DNA from: Subtercola vilae
GTDB lineage: Bacteria; Actinomycetota; Actinomycetes; Actinomycetales; Microbacteriaceae
Direction of reading: 5' to 3'
DNA length: 47,420 bases
Assembly (NCBI RefSeq): GCF_004923255.1
Contig: NZ_QYRT01000029.1
Location: 1-47,420, forward strand
Below the pieces are notes generated by a model, which had not been told where the DNA came from, ran no database searches, and saw nothing but the letters and a program-made list of their open reading frames with translations. The position numbers and the translations under genes were made by a program. Every line of letters starts with the position of its first letter. Position 1 is the stretch's first letter. This document shows positions 16,816 through 23,746 of this stretch, piece after piece.

Positions 16816-17568
16816 TTATGCCGTGACCCGTCCGGCGGTGTGTTCTCGCATGTTGTGGCCGCCGGTCTCGACCCAGATGGTGTTGTGCACGATGCGGTCC
16901 ATGATCGCGTCGGCGTGAACGCCGGAGCCGAGGCGTTGGTGCCAATCGCGTTGGGCGTATTGGGTGCAGAACACTGTTGATGTTTGGTCGTAGCGGCGTT
17001 CGAGGAGCTCTAGCAGCATGCTCCGGGTGGACTCGTCGGGTTCGTCGAGGAGCCATTCATCGATCACTAACAGAGTGAACGACGAGTACTTGTTCAGAAA
17101 TTTGGTCGTCCCGGAGGGCTTATCGCGGGCCAGTTGCCACGCCTCTTCGAGTTCCGGCATTCGGATGTAGTGCGCTCGTACCCGGTGCGAGCAGGCCGCT
17201 TTCGCCAACGCGCACCCCAGATATGATTTCCCCGACCCGGTGAAGCCTTGGAAGACGACATTCTGCTGCCGGTCGATGAATGAACACGTGCCGAGGCCTG
17301 CGATTATGGACCGGTCAAGGCCGCGTTCCTCGACGAGGTCCAGGCGGCGCAGGTCAGCGTTCGGGTAACGCAGGTTCGCCCGGCGGATCAGTCCCTCGAC
17401 CTTGGTTTGGGTGAAGACGGAGTGGGCGTCATCGACGGCGACTTTGAGCTTTTCCTCGAACGTCAACCCCAGCGTCAGAACATCGTCCTGGGCATCGAAC
17501 GCGTCCAACAAGGTGGCGACACCCATTTCGCGGAGTTTGCGTTTGGTCTCGATATCGATCCGGCTCAC
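16816..17568 (-). CDS. istB: IS21-family helper ATPase IstB
   Basis: A 250-residue AAA+ ATPase that helps the IS21 transposase IstA select target DNA and assemble the strand-transfer complex. Walker A is seen as FQGFTGSGKSYLGCALAKAA (about residues 105-124), and Walker B as FTLLVIDEWLLDEP near 170. The C-terminal part contains STVFCTQYAQRDWHQRLGSG and DRIVHNT, typical of IstB. Its start overlaps the end of istA (ATGA), as in other IS21 elements. Length matches the family (about 245-265 residues), and no defect is visible. Confidence 0.93.
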   Translation of the reverse strand: MSRIDIETKRKLREMGVATLLDAFDAQDDVLTLGLTFEEKLKVAVDDAHSVFTQTKVEGLIRRANLRYPNADLRRLDLVEERGLDRSIIAGLGTCSFIDRQQNVVFQGFTGSGKSYLGCALAKAACSHRVRAHYIRMPELEEAWQLARDKPSGTTKFLNKYSSFTLLVIDEWLLDEPDESTRSMLLELLERRYDQTSTVFCTQYAQRDWHQRLGSGVHADAIMDRIVHNTIWVETGGHNMREHTAGRVTA

Positions 17569-19136
17569 CGGGTACCGCCTCCGGCGTAGTAGTCGGCGCC
17601 GCGGATATAGCCGCCGGGTTCGGGTTCAGTGGGTTCGAACCGCGGCATCCTGCGGGTGCTCTTCTTGTCTTGCCCGGTCTCCAGAATCGGTTGCAGGTGC
17701 GCATACCGGGGCGAGCGGACTCGACCCTCGAGCGCGATCTGGCATGCTCTCTCCAACCTCTCAGCGGAGTATCGGCGGGACAGCCGCAGCGCGGCCAGGG
17801 CAGCGTCGAAGCCTTGCTCCTCCACCGCCACAGCCTCGTAGATCCTGTTCACCACGGTCACCATGTTCGGGCCGACCCGCTCCGCCCATACCCGAATCCG
17901 TTCTGTGTCCCATTCCCGATATTTCTCGCCCTGCGGTTGGTCGGCATCGTTCGTGCGGTATTCGTTCACGACATGCTCACCGAACAACAGGTGGCTGGTG
18001 AGCCTTTCATGGTTGCGATAGACCTCCAGCACCTGGCTGGTGACGCGCAGGTCGACGCTCTGCCCAACATGGGCGTATGGGGCGGAGTAGAAGTTCTTTC
18101 CCCAGACCACGTGCCCGTTCTTTTGTACCCGACGCCCGATAATCCACCGGCTGATCTCATACGGCGTCGCCGGCAGCGGCCGCAGTAGTGCTTTCTCCTC
18201 CGTCTCGAACACGGTAAGGCGGGAGCCGGCGCGTTTTTGGAACGGTTCCCGGTTATAGGCATCCATCCGTTCACGGATCGCGGCCCGCAGCTCAGGCAGC
18301 GTTCCGAAGCTCTGGAGACGTAAGCCGGCGATGACCCAGGTCGCGACATGAGAGACCGTATTTTCCACCGACGCCTTATCTTTCGGTGCCCGAGGTCTGC
18401 CCGGGAGCACCGCGGCCGAGTAATGCGCAGCCATCTGACGGTAGGCGTCGTTCAACACGATCTCGCCCTCGCGAGGGTGTTTGATCACCCCAGTCTTCAA
18501 GTTGTCGGGCACGATTCGGGGAACCGTTCCGCCGAACCACTCAAACATCGCCACGTTCGCGAGCAGCCACGTATCTTGCCGCATATCCAACGCCGGCTCG
18601 ACGAACGCATACCGCGAAAACGGCAGACACGCCACGAACAAATACACCCGCGACGACTCACCGGTCACCGGGTCGATGAGCTGCATCGTCGGCCCTGACC
18701 AGTCGACCTCGACCGTCCGCCCAGCCTTGTGGCCCACCCGCGACGCCGCGCCCGTGATCAACGTATGCGCGGCATACGTCTTGCAGAATCGGTCGTAACC
18801 CATCGCCGGCTGCCCCGTCATGGCGCACGCGTCGACGTACTCACCATGCAGCAGCTTCAACGTCACCCCGACCTTGGCGAGCTCGTTGTGAACCGCTTCC
18901 CAATCGGGCTGCACGAACACGCTCTCGTGATCGCCCCGGCCCGGGAACAACAACGTATACAGCTCAGCATCGCTGCGGTCTGCCAAATCGGTACCGCCGA
19001 TCCCAGCCTGGTCAGCGGCATCGAATACGGCCAGCACGCTCTTGCGCGACATGCCCTGCGCGAGTGCGATCGCGCGCCCCGTCATACCCTCGGCGCGGAG
19101 TCGAAGCACCAGTCCCGCTTGAATCCTTCGTACCAT
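17565..19136 (-). CDS. istA: IS21-family transposase IstA
   Basis: A 523-residue DDE transposase. The N-terminal helix-turn-helix LRAEGMTGRAIALAQGMSRK (residues 14-33) precedes the integrase core. The catalytic acidic residues are visible as VEVDWSGPTMQLID (first Asp, near residue 145), VPDNLKTGV (second Asp, near 210) and DKASVENTVSHV (Glu, near 260). The C-terminal half includes FYSAPYAHVG, a beta-barrel typical of IstA. ATG at 19136 is the first plausible start. Full length and intact, with istB directly following. Confidence 0.93.
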   Translation of the reverse strand: MVRRIQAGLVLRLRAEGMTGRAIALAQGMSRKSVLAVFDAADQAGIGGTDLADRSDAELYTLLFPGRGDHESVFVQPDWEAVHNELAKVGVTLKLLHGEYVDACAMTGQPAMGYDRFCKTYAAHTLITGAASRVGHKAGRTVEVDWSGPTMQLIDPVTGESSRVYLFVACLPFSRYAFVEPALDMRQDTWLLANVAMFEWFGGTVPRIVPDNLKTGVIKHPREGEIVLNDAYRQMAAHYSAAVLPGRPRAPKDKASVENTVSHVATWVIAGLRLQSFGTLPELRAAIRERMDAYNREPFQKRAGSRLTVFETEEKALLRPLPATPYEISRWIIGRRVQKNGHVVWGKNFYSAPYAHVGQSVDLRVTSQVLEVYRNHERLTSHLLFGEHVVNEYRTNDADQPQGEKYREWDTERIRVWAERVGPNMVTVVNRIYEAVAVEEQGFDAALAALRLSRRYSAERLERACQIALEGRVRSPRYAHLQPILETGQDKKSTRRMPRFEPTEPEPGGYIRGADYYAGGGTR

Positions 19137-19819: not shown

Positions 19820-21103
19820 TTAGGTGTTGGTGGGTTCTTGGTTGGTTGCGTGTTGGTGGCGTGCTCGTCGTCGCCAGTCTTCGGGGATGGCTGCTTCGAG
19901 GGCGTCGTCGACGGTGATGACGCCGAGGATTCGGTGGTTGCCGTCGAGGATGGGGAGGGTGAGGAGGTTGTAGTCGGCCATGATGTTGCTGATGTCAATC
20001 ATGTCGTCGCGGGGGTCGGCGTGGACTGGGTCGGGGTCGGCGATGTCTCCGAGACGGTCGTTCGGGTCTGCCTGGATGGCGCGTACGAGGCTCAGTGATC
20101 CGGTGAGTTGCAGGTCGGTGTTGGTGCTGTAGACCGTGCTGAGCGCCTCCGGTTGCACGGTTGTCGACGTCCGGACTTGATCGAGGACTTCTGCGATGGT
20201 CGCGTTCTCGCCCAGGGCGAGGTATTCAACGCCCATCAGTCCGCCGGCGCTGGATTCTTGGTATCTCATGAGCCGCATCACGTCGGCCTGTTTCAGGGTG
20301 GGGAGGGCGTCGATGACGGGTTGGCGGCGATCTTGGGGGAGGTCAATGATCGCGTCGACGGCGTCATCGGTTCTCATCCGGGTCAGGACCGCGGCGATCT
20401 CTGGGGTGCTGAGTGTTTTGAGGAGTTGGGTTTGGTGGGTGTCTTGGAGTTCTTCGAAGACGTCTGCTTCGAGGTCGGGGTGGTGGTGGAGGTGGTCGAG
20501 GAGGTCGTCGCGTTCTCTGGTGGACGCGCTTTCGATGATGTCCGCGATTTCTGCTGCCCGGAGCCCGCGGAGACGACCGAACCCGGTGCGGACTTTCACG
20601 GATGCTTCGTGCCCGATGAGAGCATCGAATTCGTTCCAGTCGCGGGGGGTGTGCTGGTCGTGTTTACTGCCCGGGAGCCAGCTACGTTTGTGTACGTCCA
20701 GTCCGGTGGCAGCCCATCCGGTTGGGGTGTTGGTGAGGGTGACGTCGTAGGCGCGGACGAGTCTGGCGTGTTCGACGTCGATGACGCGGTGTCCGAGGAC
20801 GGCTTCTTTGAGGAGGACTTCACCGTCCCGGCGTTCGAACGGGCGTAGGTCAAGTGTTTTGGTGTTCAGGATGATCCGGTCGGGAACGATACTGCTCACG
20901 ACGGTGATCGGTACGAAGACCCTATTTTGTCCGACTTTAGCGACGAGTCCGGTGAGGTGCGGGTGCCCGGTGGGGCCGAGGCGGACGATGGCATCGGCGA
21001 TGGTGCCGATTCCTTTGCCATCGACATCGACGACGGCGTCGCGGAGCATCGAGGAGAGATAGACCACAGCAGGCACGCCCGGCTGGGTAGTGATGGAAGT
21101 CAT
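19820..21103 (-). CDS. Channel-less MgtE-type Mg2+ sensor (PRC + MgtE_N + CBS)
   Basis: A 427-residue soluble protein. Residues 1 to about 110 form PRC-barrel-like beta repeats (VYLSSMLRDAVVDVDGKGIG and a second similar unit). Residues about 170-290 match the MgtE N-terminal superhelix (LRAAEIADIIESASTRERDDLL; PDLEADVFEEL; STPEIAAVLTRMRTDDAVD). Residues about 290-415 form a CBS pair starting SAGGLMGVEYLALGENATI, a usual MgtE transition, and ending GVITVDDALEAAIPEDW. In MgtE these domains bind Mg2+ and gate the channel. Here the transmembrane channel is absent: the protein ends after the CBS domains. It lies 63 bp downstream of the Nramp-type transporter gene on the same strand and is under the same M-box leader. 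A regulatory Mg2+ sensor for that transporter is the obvious hypothesis. Confidence 0.85.
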   Translation of the reverse strand: MTSITTQPGVPAVVYLSSMLRDAVVDVDGKGIGTIADAIVRLGPTGHPHLTGLVAKVGQNRVFVPITVVSSIVPDRIILNTKTLDLRPFERRDGEVLLKEAVLGHRVIDVEHARLVRAYDVTLTNTPTGWAATGLDVHKRSWLPGSKHDQHTPRDWNEFDALIGHEASVKVRTGFGRLRGLRAAEIADIIESASTRERDDLLDHLHHHPDLEADVFEELQDTHQTQLLKTLSTPEIAAVLTRMRTDDAVDAIIDLPQDRRQPVIDALPTLKQADVMRLMRYQESSAGGLMGVEYLALGENATIAEVLDQVRTSTTVQPEALSTVYSTNTDLQLTGSLSLVRAIQADPNDRLGDIADPDPVHADPRDDMIDISNIMADYNLLTLPILDGNHRILGVITVDDALEAAIPEDWRRRARHQHATNQEPTNT

Positions 21104-21166
21104 CGGAGGGCCTTTCGGAGGGGGTTACAGCACGATAAGTGGGTTTGGTGGTGAGGGTTCACGATG

Positions 21167-22819
21167 TCAGCCCGCCGGGTTCGCGGCCAACTGAATGATA
21201 CGGACAATGACGAGAATCATGGCTAGTAGTAGGTAGGTGCGAAGAACCGTGAGGCCAAGGCGCCTGCCGGCGGAAAGGTTCGGTGGTTTCAAGAGCGACA
21301 GCGGCGGCATCCGCCAGGTGGGACGTTCGCGGCGGTCGACCGTGTCCGGGGACGGGGCCGCGGGCCGGATGATGCGGTACACCGCAAAGGCGATGCCGGC
21401 CAGCAGGGAGACTCCGCCTCCGATAGCGAGGATCGCGATGATCGCGGCGGATCCGATCGAGGGGAACAAGACGCTCGCGGTGAGCACGATGGATAAGATT
21501 ACGAGGACGGCGATCACGGCGGCGGTGAAGATATTCAGTGCCCGACCGTTGACCCAGGGCCCAAGTACGGTTTTGTCGTTGCAGAGCAGCAGGAGGAATA
21601 CGGTTGCTGAGGGTAGGAGAACTCCGGCGAGGACTTGCACGCCTACGGTGATTAACCCGAGTGGGCTGCCAGGGATTAGAACGACGATGGCTGAGACCAC
21701 GAGGATCCCGGCGAACGCGGCGTAGAAGCCTTTCGCTTCGGAGACTTTCCGGTGTAAGGAGTGCTTCAGTCCGAGAACGTCACCGAGGGCGTAGGAGGTG
21801 GAGAGACCGACCGCGGCCGCACCGATAATTGACGCGTCGATGAGTGCGACGGCGAAGAGGATGCCTGCCGTTTTTCCTACGTACTGTTCTAGGCCTGTGG
21901 CTACACCGCCCGCGTCGGTGAAGTTCCCGAACAGCGGCGTACCGGTGAACGCCCCGGATGTGACGGACATCAGAGCGGCCGCGCCGACGATGACGATGGC
22001 GATTCCGATCCAGAGGTCGACTTTTTCGTAGTTCATGAACCGGGGGGTTATCCGCTTATCGATGACGTAGGACTGTTGGAAGAACAACTGCCACGGCGCG
22101 ACGGTCGTGCCGATGATCCCGATGATCAGCAAGGTCACCGTGGACAGCTCCGCACCGGGCGGGAACCCGGGAATCAGGAACCCGGCTGCGACCTCACCGA
22201 TCGGTGCGTGAACGATAATCACAAGGGGTACGAGCAGCAGCGATCCGGCGATCAGGATCATGCAAAGACGTTCGAACCGTTTGAACGACCCGGTACTGAC
22301 AGCCCCGATCACGAACAGTGCGGCGACGATGATTCCGGGGACTTTCGGAATCCCCAGATAGGTAAGTCCCAGACTGATGCCGATGAACTCCGTGATGATC
22401 GTGAGGCCGTTCAGGATGAATAGGTCGATGACGCTGAACGCGCCCCAGAACTTCCCGAACCGTTCCAGGATGAGCCTCGCGTGGCCGACCCCGGCGACAG
22501 CTCCGAGGCGGAGGACCATCTCCTGATTCACGTAAAGCACGGGGATCAGGAGCACCAGAACCCAAAGCAGGCTGGTTCCGTAGTTCTGGCCTGCCTGCGT
22601 GTAAGTACCAAACGCACCGGCGTCGTTGTCGCCGACCATCACGATCAGGCCAGGCCCAACAATCGCGACCAGGGTACGGAGCTTCGCGGACATTTTCGTG
22701 CGAGGCGCATCATCACCCAGAGCGATGGTGCCGAAGGCGCCTTCGATGTTTCCGACGTGCGCGGAGTCCAGAGCGGAGTTCGGCTGCGCGGTTGGTTCAG
22801 TGTCGATAGGTGAGCTCAT
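21167..22819 (-). CDS. Nramp-related Mg2+ transporter (NRMT-like)
   Basis: A 550-residue membrane protein of the Nramp fold with about 11 hydrophobic helices. In canonical Nramp proteins the metal site uses DPGN in helix 1 and MPH in helix 6. Here helix 1 reads VGDNDAGAFGTY (about residue 60) and helix 6 reads TTVAPWQLFFQQ (about 240), so the conserved Met is replaced by Ala. Loss of that Met is a known mark of Nramp-related magnesium transporters, which accept hard, hydrated Mg2+ instead of Mn2+ or Fe2+. The M-box Mg2+ riboswitch upstream supports the same assignment. The N-terminal 45 residues are a hydrophilic extension. ATG at 22819 is preceded by GGGAGGAAG. It is the first gene of a two-gene operon with the MgtE-like sensor. 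Confidence 0.85.
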   Translation of the reverse strand: MSSPIDTEPTAQPNSALDSAHVGNIEGAFGTIALGDDAPRTKMSAKLRTLVAIVGPGLIVMVGDNDAGAFGTYTQAGQNYGTSLLWVLVLLIPVLYVNQEMVLRLGAVAGVGHARLILERFGKFWGAFSVIDLFILNGLTIITEFIGISLGLTYLGIPKVPGIIVAALFVIGAVSTGSFKRFERLCMILIAGSLLLVPLVIIVHAPIGEVAAGFLIPGFPPGAELSTVTLLIIGIIGTTVAPWQLFFQQSYVIDKRITPRFMNYEKVDLWIGIAIVIVGAAALMSVTSGAFTGTPLFGNFTDAGGVATGLEQYVGKTAGILFAVALIDASIIGAAAVGLSTSYALGDVLGLKHSLHRKVSEAKGFYAAFAGILVVSAIVVLIPGSPLGLITVGVQVLAGVLLPSATVFLLLLCNDKTVLGPWVNGRALNIFTAAVIAVLVILSIVLTASVLFPSIGSAAIIAILAIGGGVSLLAGIAFAVYRIIRPAAPSPDTVDRRERPTWRMPPLSLLKPPNLSAGRRLGLTVLRTYLLLAMILVIVRIIQLAANPAG

Positions 22820-22828
22820 CAGAGGTCA

Positions 22829-22849
22829 CTTCCTCCCGCTGTTAGCGGG
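22829..22849 (-). promoter_or_regulatory. Shine-Dalgarno-sequestering hairpin
   Basis: On the minus strand a 6-bp GC stem (CCCGCT, loop AAC, AGCGGG) lies 15-30 bases before the transporter start. Its 3' arm runs into the ribosome binding site GGGAGGAAG. Formation of this hairpin would mask the site and could serve as the output of the M-box riboswitch upstream. The stem is visible; the coupling to the aptamer is inferred. Confidence 0.45.
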
Positions 22850-23069
22850 GTCAGAGCAAGTGTGAATCGCCGCGAAGGTTCGGTCCTATCGAGGCGCTGG
22901 GCAGCGCGAAACACTCTCACCTGGAGAAGCTAACCGCCTTGGGTGAATAGGGCGTTGACGTTGGCAGCTGGAGGGTGTTCTGCGCGCGGGACTATGGCTC
23001 GGACTCATCAGGTCCACCTCCCGCACTTTCGGCGGCACCCGACAGACCCCAACCTGTTGGCTGGTGACA

Positions 23070-23233
23070 ACCTGTCCTCGTAAGACCTTTGGCACTTCGC
23101 GGCGTCGACCCAACTTTACGGTTGGGAGCCAATCGGGGCTACCCCTTAAGCCGGGATGGCCTGTCCTGACCCGAGGCGTCTCTCGACGTTTAGGGTCGCT
23201 GGCATATTTCCGCGAAGGAGCCTCAGCTAACGA
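23070..23233 (-). promoter_or_regulatory. M-box (ykoK) Mg2+ riboswitch aptamer
   Basis: Reading the minus strand, the conserved M-box blocks appear in order: CGTTAGCTGAGGCTCCT, then GGAAATATGCC, then AAACGTCGAGAGACGCC, then GGGTCAGGACAG, and near the 3' end AGTGCCAAAGGTCTTACGAG. These match the bacterial M-box consensus (GUUAGGUGAGGCUCCU, GUC-A-AGACGCC, GGGUCAACAG, GUGCUAAAG-UCUACG). At high Mg2+ the aptamer compacts and lowers expression of Mg2+ uptake genes. It lies about 250 bp upstream of the Nramp-type transporter start. The remaining leader includes the hairpin at 22829-22849. Confidence 0.9.
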
Positions 23234-23377
23234 ACAGCACCTTGCGGCGATCACTATACGCCGTGATCGAAGCTCCCGCAAACCCGCGCAAAGGGGCACT
23301 GCCGGATGAGGATCGCCTACCCTGCCTGGCCGAGCGGACACGCATGTGCTTGTCTGAACTCGGAAGGGAAAAAGCAC

Positions 23378-23746
23378 ATGAGCACGTTCGGATACCTGCT
23401 GCTGCTGACCTCGGATGCGCTGAAAAACTCAGATCTAGGCCAGGCCGCAGGTAGATTAGCCGCTGCCATCGCCTCGAGCGGGATACAGCTTGACATAATC
23501 GTGATCGGTAACAATTCACGCGAAAGCGTCTTGGCGGACCGGACGCTTGAGAAGCTCCAAAAGCTTCCTCAGGAAATCATCGTGGACGATCGTCTAACCG
23601 ACGGTCCCACCCTCAAAGAGTTCTTCGAAGATCGCATCGTGCCAATGCTGCTGCAGCGGCAGTCGATTGTGGTCATCGCCCCAACCCGCGCCGTGATGAC
23701 CCGACTCAGCGAGATCGCTAACCCTCAGCGTGCCAACACGGGTTGA
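23378..23746 (+). CDS. Hypothetical protein (122 residues)
   Basis: I do not recognise this protein. It starts MSTFGYLLLLTSDALKNSDL at an ATG preceded by GGAAGGGAAAA. The open frame extends upstream to 23306, but that part is not protein-like. The alternating hydrophobic strands (LDIIVIGNN, QEIIVDD, QSIVVIAPT) and helices suggest a small soluble alpha/beta fold, with no signal peptide or membrane helix. It is divergent from the M-box/transporter operon and lies within the transposon cargo. About 145 bp separate it from the riboswitch, so the two transcripts may share a divergent promoter region. Confidence 0.6.
   Translation: MSTFGYLLLLTSDALKNSDLGQAAGRLAAAIASSGIQLDIIVIGNNSRESVLADRTLEKLQKLPQEIIVDDRLTDGPTLKEFFEDRIVPMLLQRQSIVVIAPTRAVMTRLSEIANPQRANTG

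Follow-up and report, generated by a model that had tools for sequence, protein, structure and literature searches.

A putative Mg2+-uptake operon of Subtercola vilae: an actinobacterial case of the M-box/NrmT/MgtE-fragment kind

Here we describe an operon on the minus strand of contig NZ_QYRT01000029.1 of Subtercola vilae (Microbacteriaceae), in which an M-box (ykoK) Mg2+ riboswitch aptamer, a short leader open reading frame (ORF), the gene of an NrmT-like (Nramp-related) transporter and the gene of a channel-less MgtE-type sensor follow one another in the order of transcription. The contig as a whole, 47,420 nucleotides long, is the window of this analysis, and the genome, which amounts to 4.04 Mb in 103 contigs, holds one M-box, three Nramp genes and two MgtE_N genes in total. 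Judging from its sequence, the locus is, with a probability of about 0.6, an actinobacterial version of the Mg2+-uptake operons that combine M-box, NrmT and MgtE fragment. At its core, the finding adds to a kind known since 2014 an actinobacterial example that has a sensor lineage of its own, and the leader ORF, which by sequence comparison is conserved well beyond mycobacteria, is the new and unexpected part.

Composition of the operon

The elements of the operon are listed below.

23068..23241, minus strand: M-box (ykoK) Mg2+ riboswitch aptamer, matched by RF00380 at full length with 126.5 bits
22886..23008, minus strand: short leader ORF of 40 codons (MSPSHSPARRT...) behind the Shine-Dalgarno (SD) sequence GGGAGG, of a kind present in 58 of 63 M-box leaders
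21167..22819, minus strand: NrmT-like (Nramp-related) transporter of 550 amino acids, assigned from Pfam Nramp and PDB 7qia, with D66xxA69 and T238xxA241
19820..21103, minus strand: channel-less MgtE-type sensor of 427 amino acids with PRC barrel, MgtE_N and CBS domains, assigned from Pfam, PDB and an alignment of Mg sites

Operons in which an M-box controls nrmT and a companion gene encodes the N-terminal cytoplasmic domain of MgtE were described by Shin et al. (2014; PMC4072509), who reported Mg2+ transport by such an NrmT on the basis of genetic complementation and speculated that the MgtE-like fragment gives cytoplasmic feedback on transport (here and below, statements on published systems refer to passages of the papers cited). 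The window operon shares with these operons the M-box leader, the Nramp-related transporter, the gene of the MgtE N-domain and the proposed feedback. The published operons are mostly from Clostridia and Deltaproteobacteria, whereas the window is actinobacterial; the transporter gene stands first in the window and second in A. capsulatum; and neither a PRC barrel nor a leader ORF is mentioned in those passages for the M-box/nrmT operons. The transporter site in the window is DxxA. A first-pass annotation of the window, made from the letters alone, had proposed two-level control for this module. The parts, their order and the combination of RNA with protein-level control fit the evidence, but the accompanying statement that no system of this form had been described does not hold in view of the 2014 report.

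As for the aptamer, RF00380 matched positions 23068-23241 of the minus strand over all 169 model positions (1-169) with 126.5 bits against a gathering score of 44 (E 4.1e-28). The first-pass annotation had recognized its presence but placed its end at 23233, 8 nt short of 23241, and had missed the SD-preceded leader ORF (22886-23008) between the aptamer and the transporter gene.

The transporter was assigned to the SLC11 family by Pfam Nramp (PF01566, 258.4 bits), and the absence of the DPGN and MPH motifs, as stated in the first-pass annotation, was confirmed in its letters, which read GDNDAGAFGT in TM1 and TTVAPWQLFF in TM6. Its nearest solved structure was 7qia (EleNRMT; E 3.1e-51, 178 bits, the next structure reaching 76.8 bits), with 30.9% identity over 404 aligned columns. 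The two proteins have in common the SLC11 fold, the retained Asp, the exchange of Met for Ala and that of the first His for Trp, so that the Met and His of Mn2+ carriers are replaced in the window transporter as in EleNRMT (PMC8806188). The metal-site letters are D66xxA69-T238xxA241 in the window, and DxxA-TxxA was found in all 82 rows of the clade of relatives described below, whereas EleNRMT has DxxG-TxxA. Set against the NRMT consensus DxxG-TxxA/T given in passages of PMC8806188, three of the four letters fit and Ala replaces Gly. In the transporter tree, EleNRMT and the outgroup stood on very long branches with an open fork. Since the site departs from the consensus and the tree leaves the position of EleNRMT open, we named the protein NrmT-like and not strictly NRMT. 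Of the other two Nramp genes in the genome, one has DPGN/MPH and the other DPSG/TTISPY. Six Nramp loci of about 33% identity (L070-L075) were considered as further modules and rejected, none of them having an M-box and no sensor being found by tblastn; their site is DxxS (DxxC in L075) with Met kept, and some of these contigs are short.

These features suggest that the transporter imports Mg2+. It might instead be chiefly a Mn2+ carrier, or carry Mn2+ too, with the MgtE-like protein responding to Mn2+ or to another signal. In A. capsulatum, the relative that has an MgtE-like neighbor gave full Mn2+ rescue and Mg2+ rescue only at low millimolar concentrations (PMC4072509), EleNRMT moves Mn2+ as well (PMC8806188), and the window has DxxA in place of the DxxG of the NRMT consensus. 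The A. capsulatum gene, however, lacks an M-box (PMC4072509), whereas the window operon has a strong one; moreover, a separate Nramp gene with canonical DPGN/MPH exists in the genome, and Met and His are replaced as in EleNRMT. Taken together, we consider this Mn2+ reading to be quite improbable.

The second gene had been read as a PRC barrel followed by the N and CBS domains of MgtE without the channel, and the Pfam matches confirmed this composition: PRC scored 24.8 bits (cut-off 21.2), MgtE_N 67.4 bits and CBS 34.6 bits, and no MgtE channel domain was among the Pfam matches. NCBIfam mgtE gave 117.1 bits over model positions 30-251 of 450, under its cut-off of 232.75. The best PDB relatives, 2yvy and 2yvx, which we take to be MgtE of Thermus, were matched over the N and CBS domains.

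Co-occurrence with the transporter and the sensor lineage

Relatives of the transporter were collected by searching genomes with an alignment of four transporters, and the best 80 of at least 534, that is, the nearest relatives only, were retained. Together with three loci from a survey of family genomes this made 83 loci, among them two repeats, and with the window 82 distinct ones. The sensor was found by profile search in the flanks of 23 of the 82 (window included), which is a lower bound as some flanks end at contig ends. In 19 of the 23 it immediately follows the transporter gene on the same strand; in L107, L115 and L145 a second transporter gene stands between the two, and in L117 it is found upstream. 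All 23 sensor-bearing transporters fell into one 44-row clade (SH-aLRT 99), mainly of Actinomycetota; in the other 38 rows, labelled Proteobacteria, the sensor was found in none of the available flanks and the M-box in none of the 21 scanned. Three contigs from metagenome-assembled genomes (MAGs) that are labelled Proteobacteria, Novosphingobium or Sphingomonas (L096, L089 and L095) also stand inside the actinobacterial clade, a placement that reflects either binning error or transfer.

The M-box was judged in 64 of the 82 distinct loci, 17 loci lying outside the scan. It was present in 26 of the 64 (window included), about 210-450 nt upstream of the transporter gene; these comprise the window, L067, L068 and 23 loci that were mapped from coordinates and then confirmed by direct scan. 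In the remaining 38 judged loci no M-box was found, nine of these negatives relying solely on a scan with stricter filters. The scan of L098, whose contig starts 362 nt upstream, gave no match. Along the transporter tree, both the sensor and the M-box undergo about ten changes, and their correlation on it, with about nine independent pairs, was not significant in a sign test (62 labels). Some genomes are rich in M-boxes: L229 and other contigs of Streptomyces orinoci carry eight, five of them within about 17 kb of one contig and only some preceding transporter genes, and Actinacidiphila oryziradicis has three within 3 kb (L107:3784-6679), two on one strand and one on the opposite.

Two genomes in which the nrmT flank is without a sensor (those of L149 and L129) were revealed to possess elsewhere a further M-box, behind which an MgtE_N-CBS gene and an Nramp gene stand in that order (L226 and L227). 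These Nramp genes scored 185 and 195 bits with the clade profile, against at least 780 for the clade rows, and hence belong to another group (that of L227 has SPY in TM6). Both of the sensors group with the linked ones in the sensor tree described below. The two loci thus show that the sensor is paired with Nramp genes of two kinds and that either partner may come first. Recurrence of the pairing elsewhere, which had been set beforehand as a test of the module, was found in 22 further distinct loci and, in the order M-box-sensor-Nramp, in two other genomes. In the survey of 199 family genomes, close transporters were present in four (G000, G130, G124 and G155), three of which have both M-box and sensor, the exception being G124. 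A sensor-like match occurred in 197 of the 199; besides the three close ones, these were about 27-33% identical among the matches listed. No sensor-like match was found in the G124 genome (96% complete).

Whether the Mg2+-binding residues are retained was examined in an alignment of 23 linked sensors (those beside the transporters), 28 paralogues and a Thermus stretch, with the Mg list from PMC5882242 and the ATP residues from PMC5529423; the Thermus stretch ends ahead of the Mg2 and Mg3 plug residues, and the comparison covers Mg4-Mg7. The residues of Mg4 (D246, D400), Mg6 (D250) and Mg7 (D214) are Asp in 20-22 of the 23 linked sensors, the rest being gaps, and in all 28 paralogues. The ATP-site residues R187, D188 and F227 of MgtE are replaced by V340, R341 and L380 in the window, and thus an effect of ATP as in MgtE is not expected. 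The sensor therefore resembles the Thermus channel (PMC5882242, PMC5529423) in its N and CBS domains and its acidic Mg4, Mg6 and Mg7, and differs from it in lacking the channel, in the replaced ATP site, in a changed Mg5 and in the PRC barrel in front. Among six scanned linked sensors, PRC exceeded the Pfam cut-off in the window and L104, stayed just below it in L067 and L101, and gave no match in L068 and L092; despite this weak PRC signal, a sensor profile built from three full-length sensors aligned from position 22 or before in all 23 rows.

In the sensor tree, from which L089 and L108 (too short) and the repeat L088 were omitted, 21 linked sensors and 28 housekeeping paralogues stand on opposite sides of one branch (SH-aLRT 100), which points to a distinct sensor lineage going with NrmT. 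The housekeeping paralogue of the window genome is followed by a DUF1003 gene and then by an Mrp-type ATPase gene; a housekeeping operon at L078:4707-8471 likewise comprises PRC-MgtE_N-CBS, DUF1003 and Mrp-type ATPase genes, with a divergent YflT-domain gene.

The sensor might also not gate the transporter, and instead affect how stable the transporter is or target a different membrane protein, the operon being shared only as both proteins are wanted in low Mg2+. In line with this, the housekeeping paralogue lies beside DUF1003 and Mrp-type genes and not beside such a transporter, sensor-like matches are far more frequent in the family than close NrmT (197 versus 4 of 199 genomes), and many M-box/nrmT loci have no sensor. 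The separation of the linked sensors from the paralogues on the tree argues otherwise, as does their occurrence beside a more distant Nramp gene in the opposite order. We regard such a non-gating role as somewhat unlikely, and a restraint of the transporter by the sensor as the preferred reading. A peptide-pattern search of genome contigs for sensor homologues confirmed none, and searches of the family genomes were used instead.

Other genes near the transporter relatives were also recorded. In 12 of the 83 loci, the transporter has a gene of the MgtC/SapB family no more than four genes away, which in nine is its immediate neighbor (Pfam on one member); these are mainly proteobacterial loci having nrmT without the sensor, such as L148:10075-10872. 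An OprB-type porin gene lies near six loci of close nrmT relatives, two of the six being identical.

The leader ORF

In the window, the ATG of the leader ORF lies 59 nt after the aptamer behind the SD sequence GGGAGG, and its stop lies 66 nt before the transporter start. Its conservation was assessed in 64 leaders, of which 63 remain once repeats over the 60 nt following the aptamer are removed. The transporter loci supplied 26 of the 64 and other M-boxes 38 (29 in the same genomes and nine from five of 61 genomes of the order around L147), nearly all being actinobacterial; the MAG labelled Proteobacteria contributed L096. In 58 of the 63 leaders, window included, an ORF of 10-75 codons was detected behind an SD sequence, with its start 40-115 nt past the aptamer, on the criteria of SD, start codon, position and length only. 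Dinucleotide shuffles (100 rounds) gave a mean of 3.7 and a maximum of 8 such ORFs, and two downstream control stretches gave 2 and 6. When the leaders were grouped at less than 70% identity into 32 clusters, the ORF was found in 28 of them. A motif, drawn post hoc from the same leaders, was present in 54 of the 63.

The ORFs typically start with MSPSHSP (window), MKESHSP, VSESHSP, MNDGHKP, MSPGDSP, MSSSDSP or MDCSSPGHSRP, and their hosts include Leifsonia and other Microbacteriaceae, Arthrobacter, Sinomonas, Streptomyces, Kitasatospora and others. Within the first 12 codons of the 58 ORFs, AGT accounts for 131 of 194 serine codons, compared with 15 of 683 in their L-loci transporter genes. 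Every one of the 131 AGT triplets within the first 36 nt falls into frame 0 (54 of 54 with one leader per cluster), counts that are not independent as the sequences are related; in the 100 nt after the ORF stop, again with one leader per cluster, frames 0, 1 and 2 hold 10, 13 and 3. Positions 2-8 include acidic residues in 55 of the 58 ORFs, and positions 2-10 include proline in 54, both shares being given without a control set, and proline stands at position 7 in 21 ORFs, that of the window among them.

The ORF precedes genes of differing kinds. Of the 38 further leaders, 18 stand before an NrmT-like gene (profile score >300), two of the 18 being without the ORF and one having been dropped as a repeat; it was also found ahead of P-type ATPases (L191, L219), of MgtE_N-CBS genes (L196, L205) and, as judged by eye, of PPE-like or ileS-like frames. 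Because it precedes such different genes, the ORF appears to go with the M-box, and a role in cis is the simpler reading. The ratio pN/pS was 0.73 in the Streptomyces type (23 ORFs), 0.80 in a mixed group of 15 including the window and 0.83 in six mycobacterium-like loci, and no third-position excess of differences was found across the three groups. The idea of an ordinary conserved peptide was rejected, as these values of 0.73-0.83 do not support selection at the peptide level.

The ORF could encode a small protein that works in trans, as has been suggested for Rv1805A, and take no part in the switch. Its retention in 28 of 32 sequence clusters would agree with such a protein, as would the mycobacterial copy that exists away from any M-box (PMC12810186). 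Its position ahead of quite different genes ties it to the M-box and not to one partner protein, and with a pN/pS of 0.73-0.83 and three codon positions that differ alike, the case for a selected peptide is weak. We thus hold action in trans to be unlikely and favor a role of the ORF in cis.

The closest published counterpart is uORF2 in the mycobacterial pe20 and rv1535 M-box leaders, namely Rv1805A, for which a conserved proline 7, a translational platform and Rho-dependent termination were described, and whose peptide was termed mycobacteria-specific (PMC12810186). The window ORF is likewise a short SD-preceded ORF after the aptamer with Pro at position 7, and no intrinsic-terminator-like site was found in the window leader; it differs in that ORFs of its type occur in several actinobacterial families and before other genes. 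Six leaders with PE/PPE-like, ileS-like or NrmT-like neighbors start with MSPGDSP, VSPGDSP, MSPSDSP, MSPDDSP or MSSSDSP, Pro again being at position 7, and the likeness to Rv1805A was judged only through such loci with mycobacterial-looking neighbors. In open-access literature, judged largely from listings and from passages of PMC12810186 and PMC11109978, no report of the leader ORF outside mycobacteria was found. In the order around L147, two M-box-led genes (L222 and L225) scored 584-589 bits with the NrmT profile, so that the manganese-type mycobacterial M-box branch (PMC12810186) may consist of NrmT-like transporters.

Proposed mechanism and neighboring genes

We propose the following course of regulation. 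When Mg2+ is plentiful, the folded M-box would deny ribosomes access to the leader ORF, and the RNA, left without translation, would be terminated, probably by Rho, as published for a mycobacterial M-box. When Mg2+ is scarce, the leader would be translated and the transporter and the sensor would be made, whereupon the transporter would import partly hydrated Mg2+. As intracellular Mg2+ rises, the separate sensor would bind Mg2+ between its N and CBS domains and in this state restrain the transporter, which would amount to the feedback of MgtE except that sensor and transport unit are two proteins. We infer that the transporter moves Mg2+, that the sensor gates it and that the leader switches, and gating is the least certain of these steps.

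Several observations weigh against this reading. In the A. capsulatum co-expression experiment the MgtE-like fragment added no rescue, and the transporter behaved like a carrier of Mn2+ (PMC4072509). Among the 82 distinct close relatives, 59 have no sensor in the available flank, some flanks ending at contig ends, and the 7 kb contig that carries a 76% identical transporter (L069, 1238-2881, in G124) lacks both M-box and sensor. At the nearest locus (L067, G130), the aptamer scored only 53.7 bits. In the sensor, Mg5 is changed (D226 to N and D250 to E), N379 being present in 19 and E403 in 17 of the 23 linked sensors. Folding of the leaders predicted the SD of the ORF to be mostly closed, with a mean unpaired value of 0.14 when the 3' strand of the aptamer was excluded, and slightly more open when that strand was free (0.18 vs 0.14, 41 of 58 leaders, Wilcoxon p 0.005); this opening did not exceed that of a shuffled-strand control (0.18 vs 0.19, p 0.13). 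The folding thus showed no specific SD release that would speak for a thermodynamic switch via the aptamer 3' strand.

Two further features adjoin the operon.

23378..23746, plus strand: degenerate phosphoglycerate-mutase-like gene, divergent, 122 amino acids, assigned by PDB profile, AlphaFold2 and Foldseek
16816..19136, minus strand: IS21-type transposase and IstB helper genes, with Pfam IstB_IS21 and Mu-transpos_C_2 over cut-off and rve below

The profile of the mutase-like protein matched phosphoglycerate mutases in the PDB (best E 4e-6), the protein ending before the profile does. An AlphaFold2 model from three sequences reached a pLDDT of 80.5, and Foldseek returned seven matches at E <=0.001, the best being 3f2i (E 1.7e-4), a Nostoc protein for which no function is given, followed by PGAM5 and phosphoglycerate mutases. 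RHG, which we take to be the motif to look for in phosphoglycerate-mutase-like proteins, was absent from the three aligned proteins. Relatives of the gene adjoin the operon in G130, G155 and Leifsonia sp. 71-9, two of them being located beside the operon on the minus strand at L067:6187-6738 and L068:452-874, and the profile found none in the remaining loci of the 83-locus flank search. Among the 199 family genomes, only G000, G130 and G155 exceeded 190 bits for this protein, the next reaching 41, and these are the three family genomes with the complete module.

The IS21-type transposase and IstB genes are outside the mechanism. Resolvase, TniB and Mu-type transposase genes adjoin the operon at L068:4505-9024 as well, and the module may travel on mobile DNA, given the transposase genes beside both operons.

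The destabilization of the ribosome at mgtQ of Salmonella depends on Mg2+. In this very short ORF ahead of a Mg2+ transporter gene, early acidic residues are reported to destabilize the ribosome (PMC8092293), and the leader ORF resembles it in length, in its early acidic residues and in its position; no M-box is named for mgtQ in the passages of that paper, and the likeness is one of analogy. A link of the leader ORF to ribosome destabilization is accordingly put forward as speculation. By extension, actinobacterial M-box control might rest on two Mg2+ sensors in one leader, the aptamer and a conserved leader ORF rich in AGU serine codons with its start in a closed structure, in which early acidic and proline residues would lead to ribosome drop-off, more so in low Mg2+, and thereby, via Rho or re-initiation, set the next gene (NrmT, P-type ATPase, PPE or sensor gene). 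In the window, the detached MgtE domain would be a third sensor acting on the transporter protein, and the mutase-like protein may be a partner. We offer this scheme as a conjecture that, as a whole, is rather doubtful.

In this module, a regulator domain severed from its channel occurs naturally as the partner of an unrelated transporter, which makes the speculation of 2014 testable in a laboratory strain. If most actinobacterial M-boxes indeed act via a translated short ORF, M-box control in these bacteria would differ from the terminator switches of Bacillus, and the mycobacterial uORF would be one case of a general device and not a genus-specific peptide.

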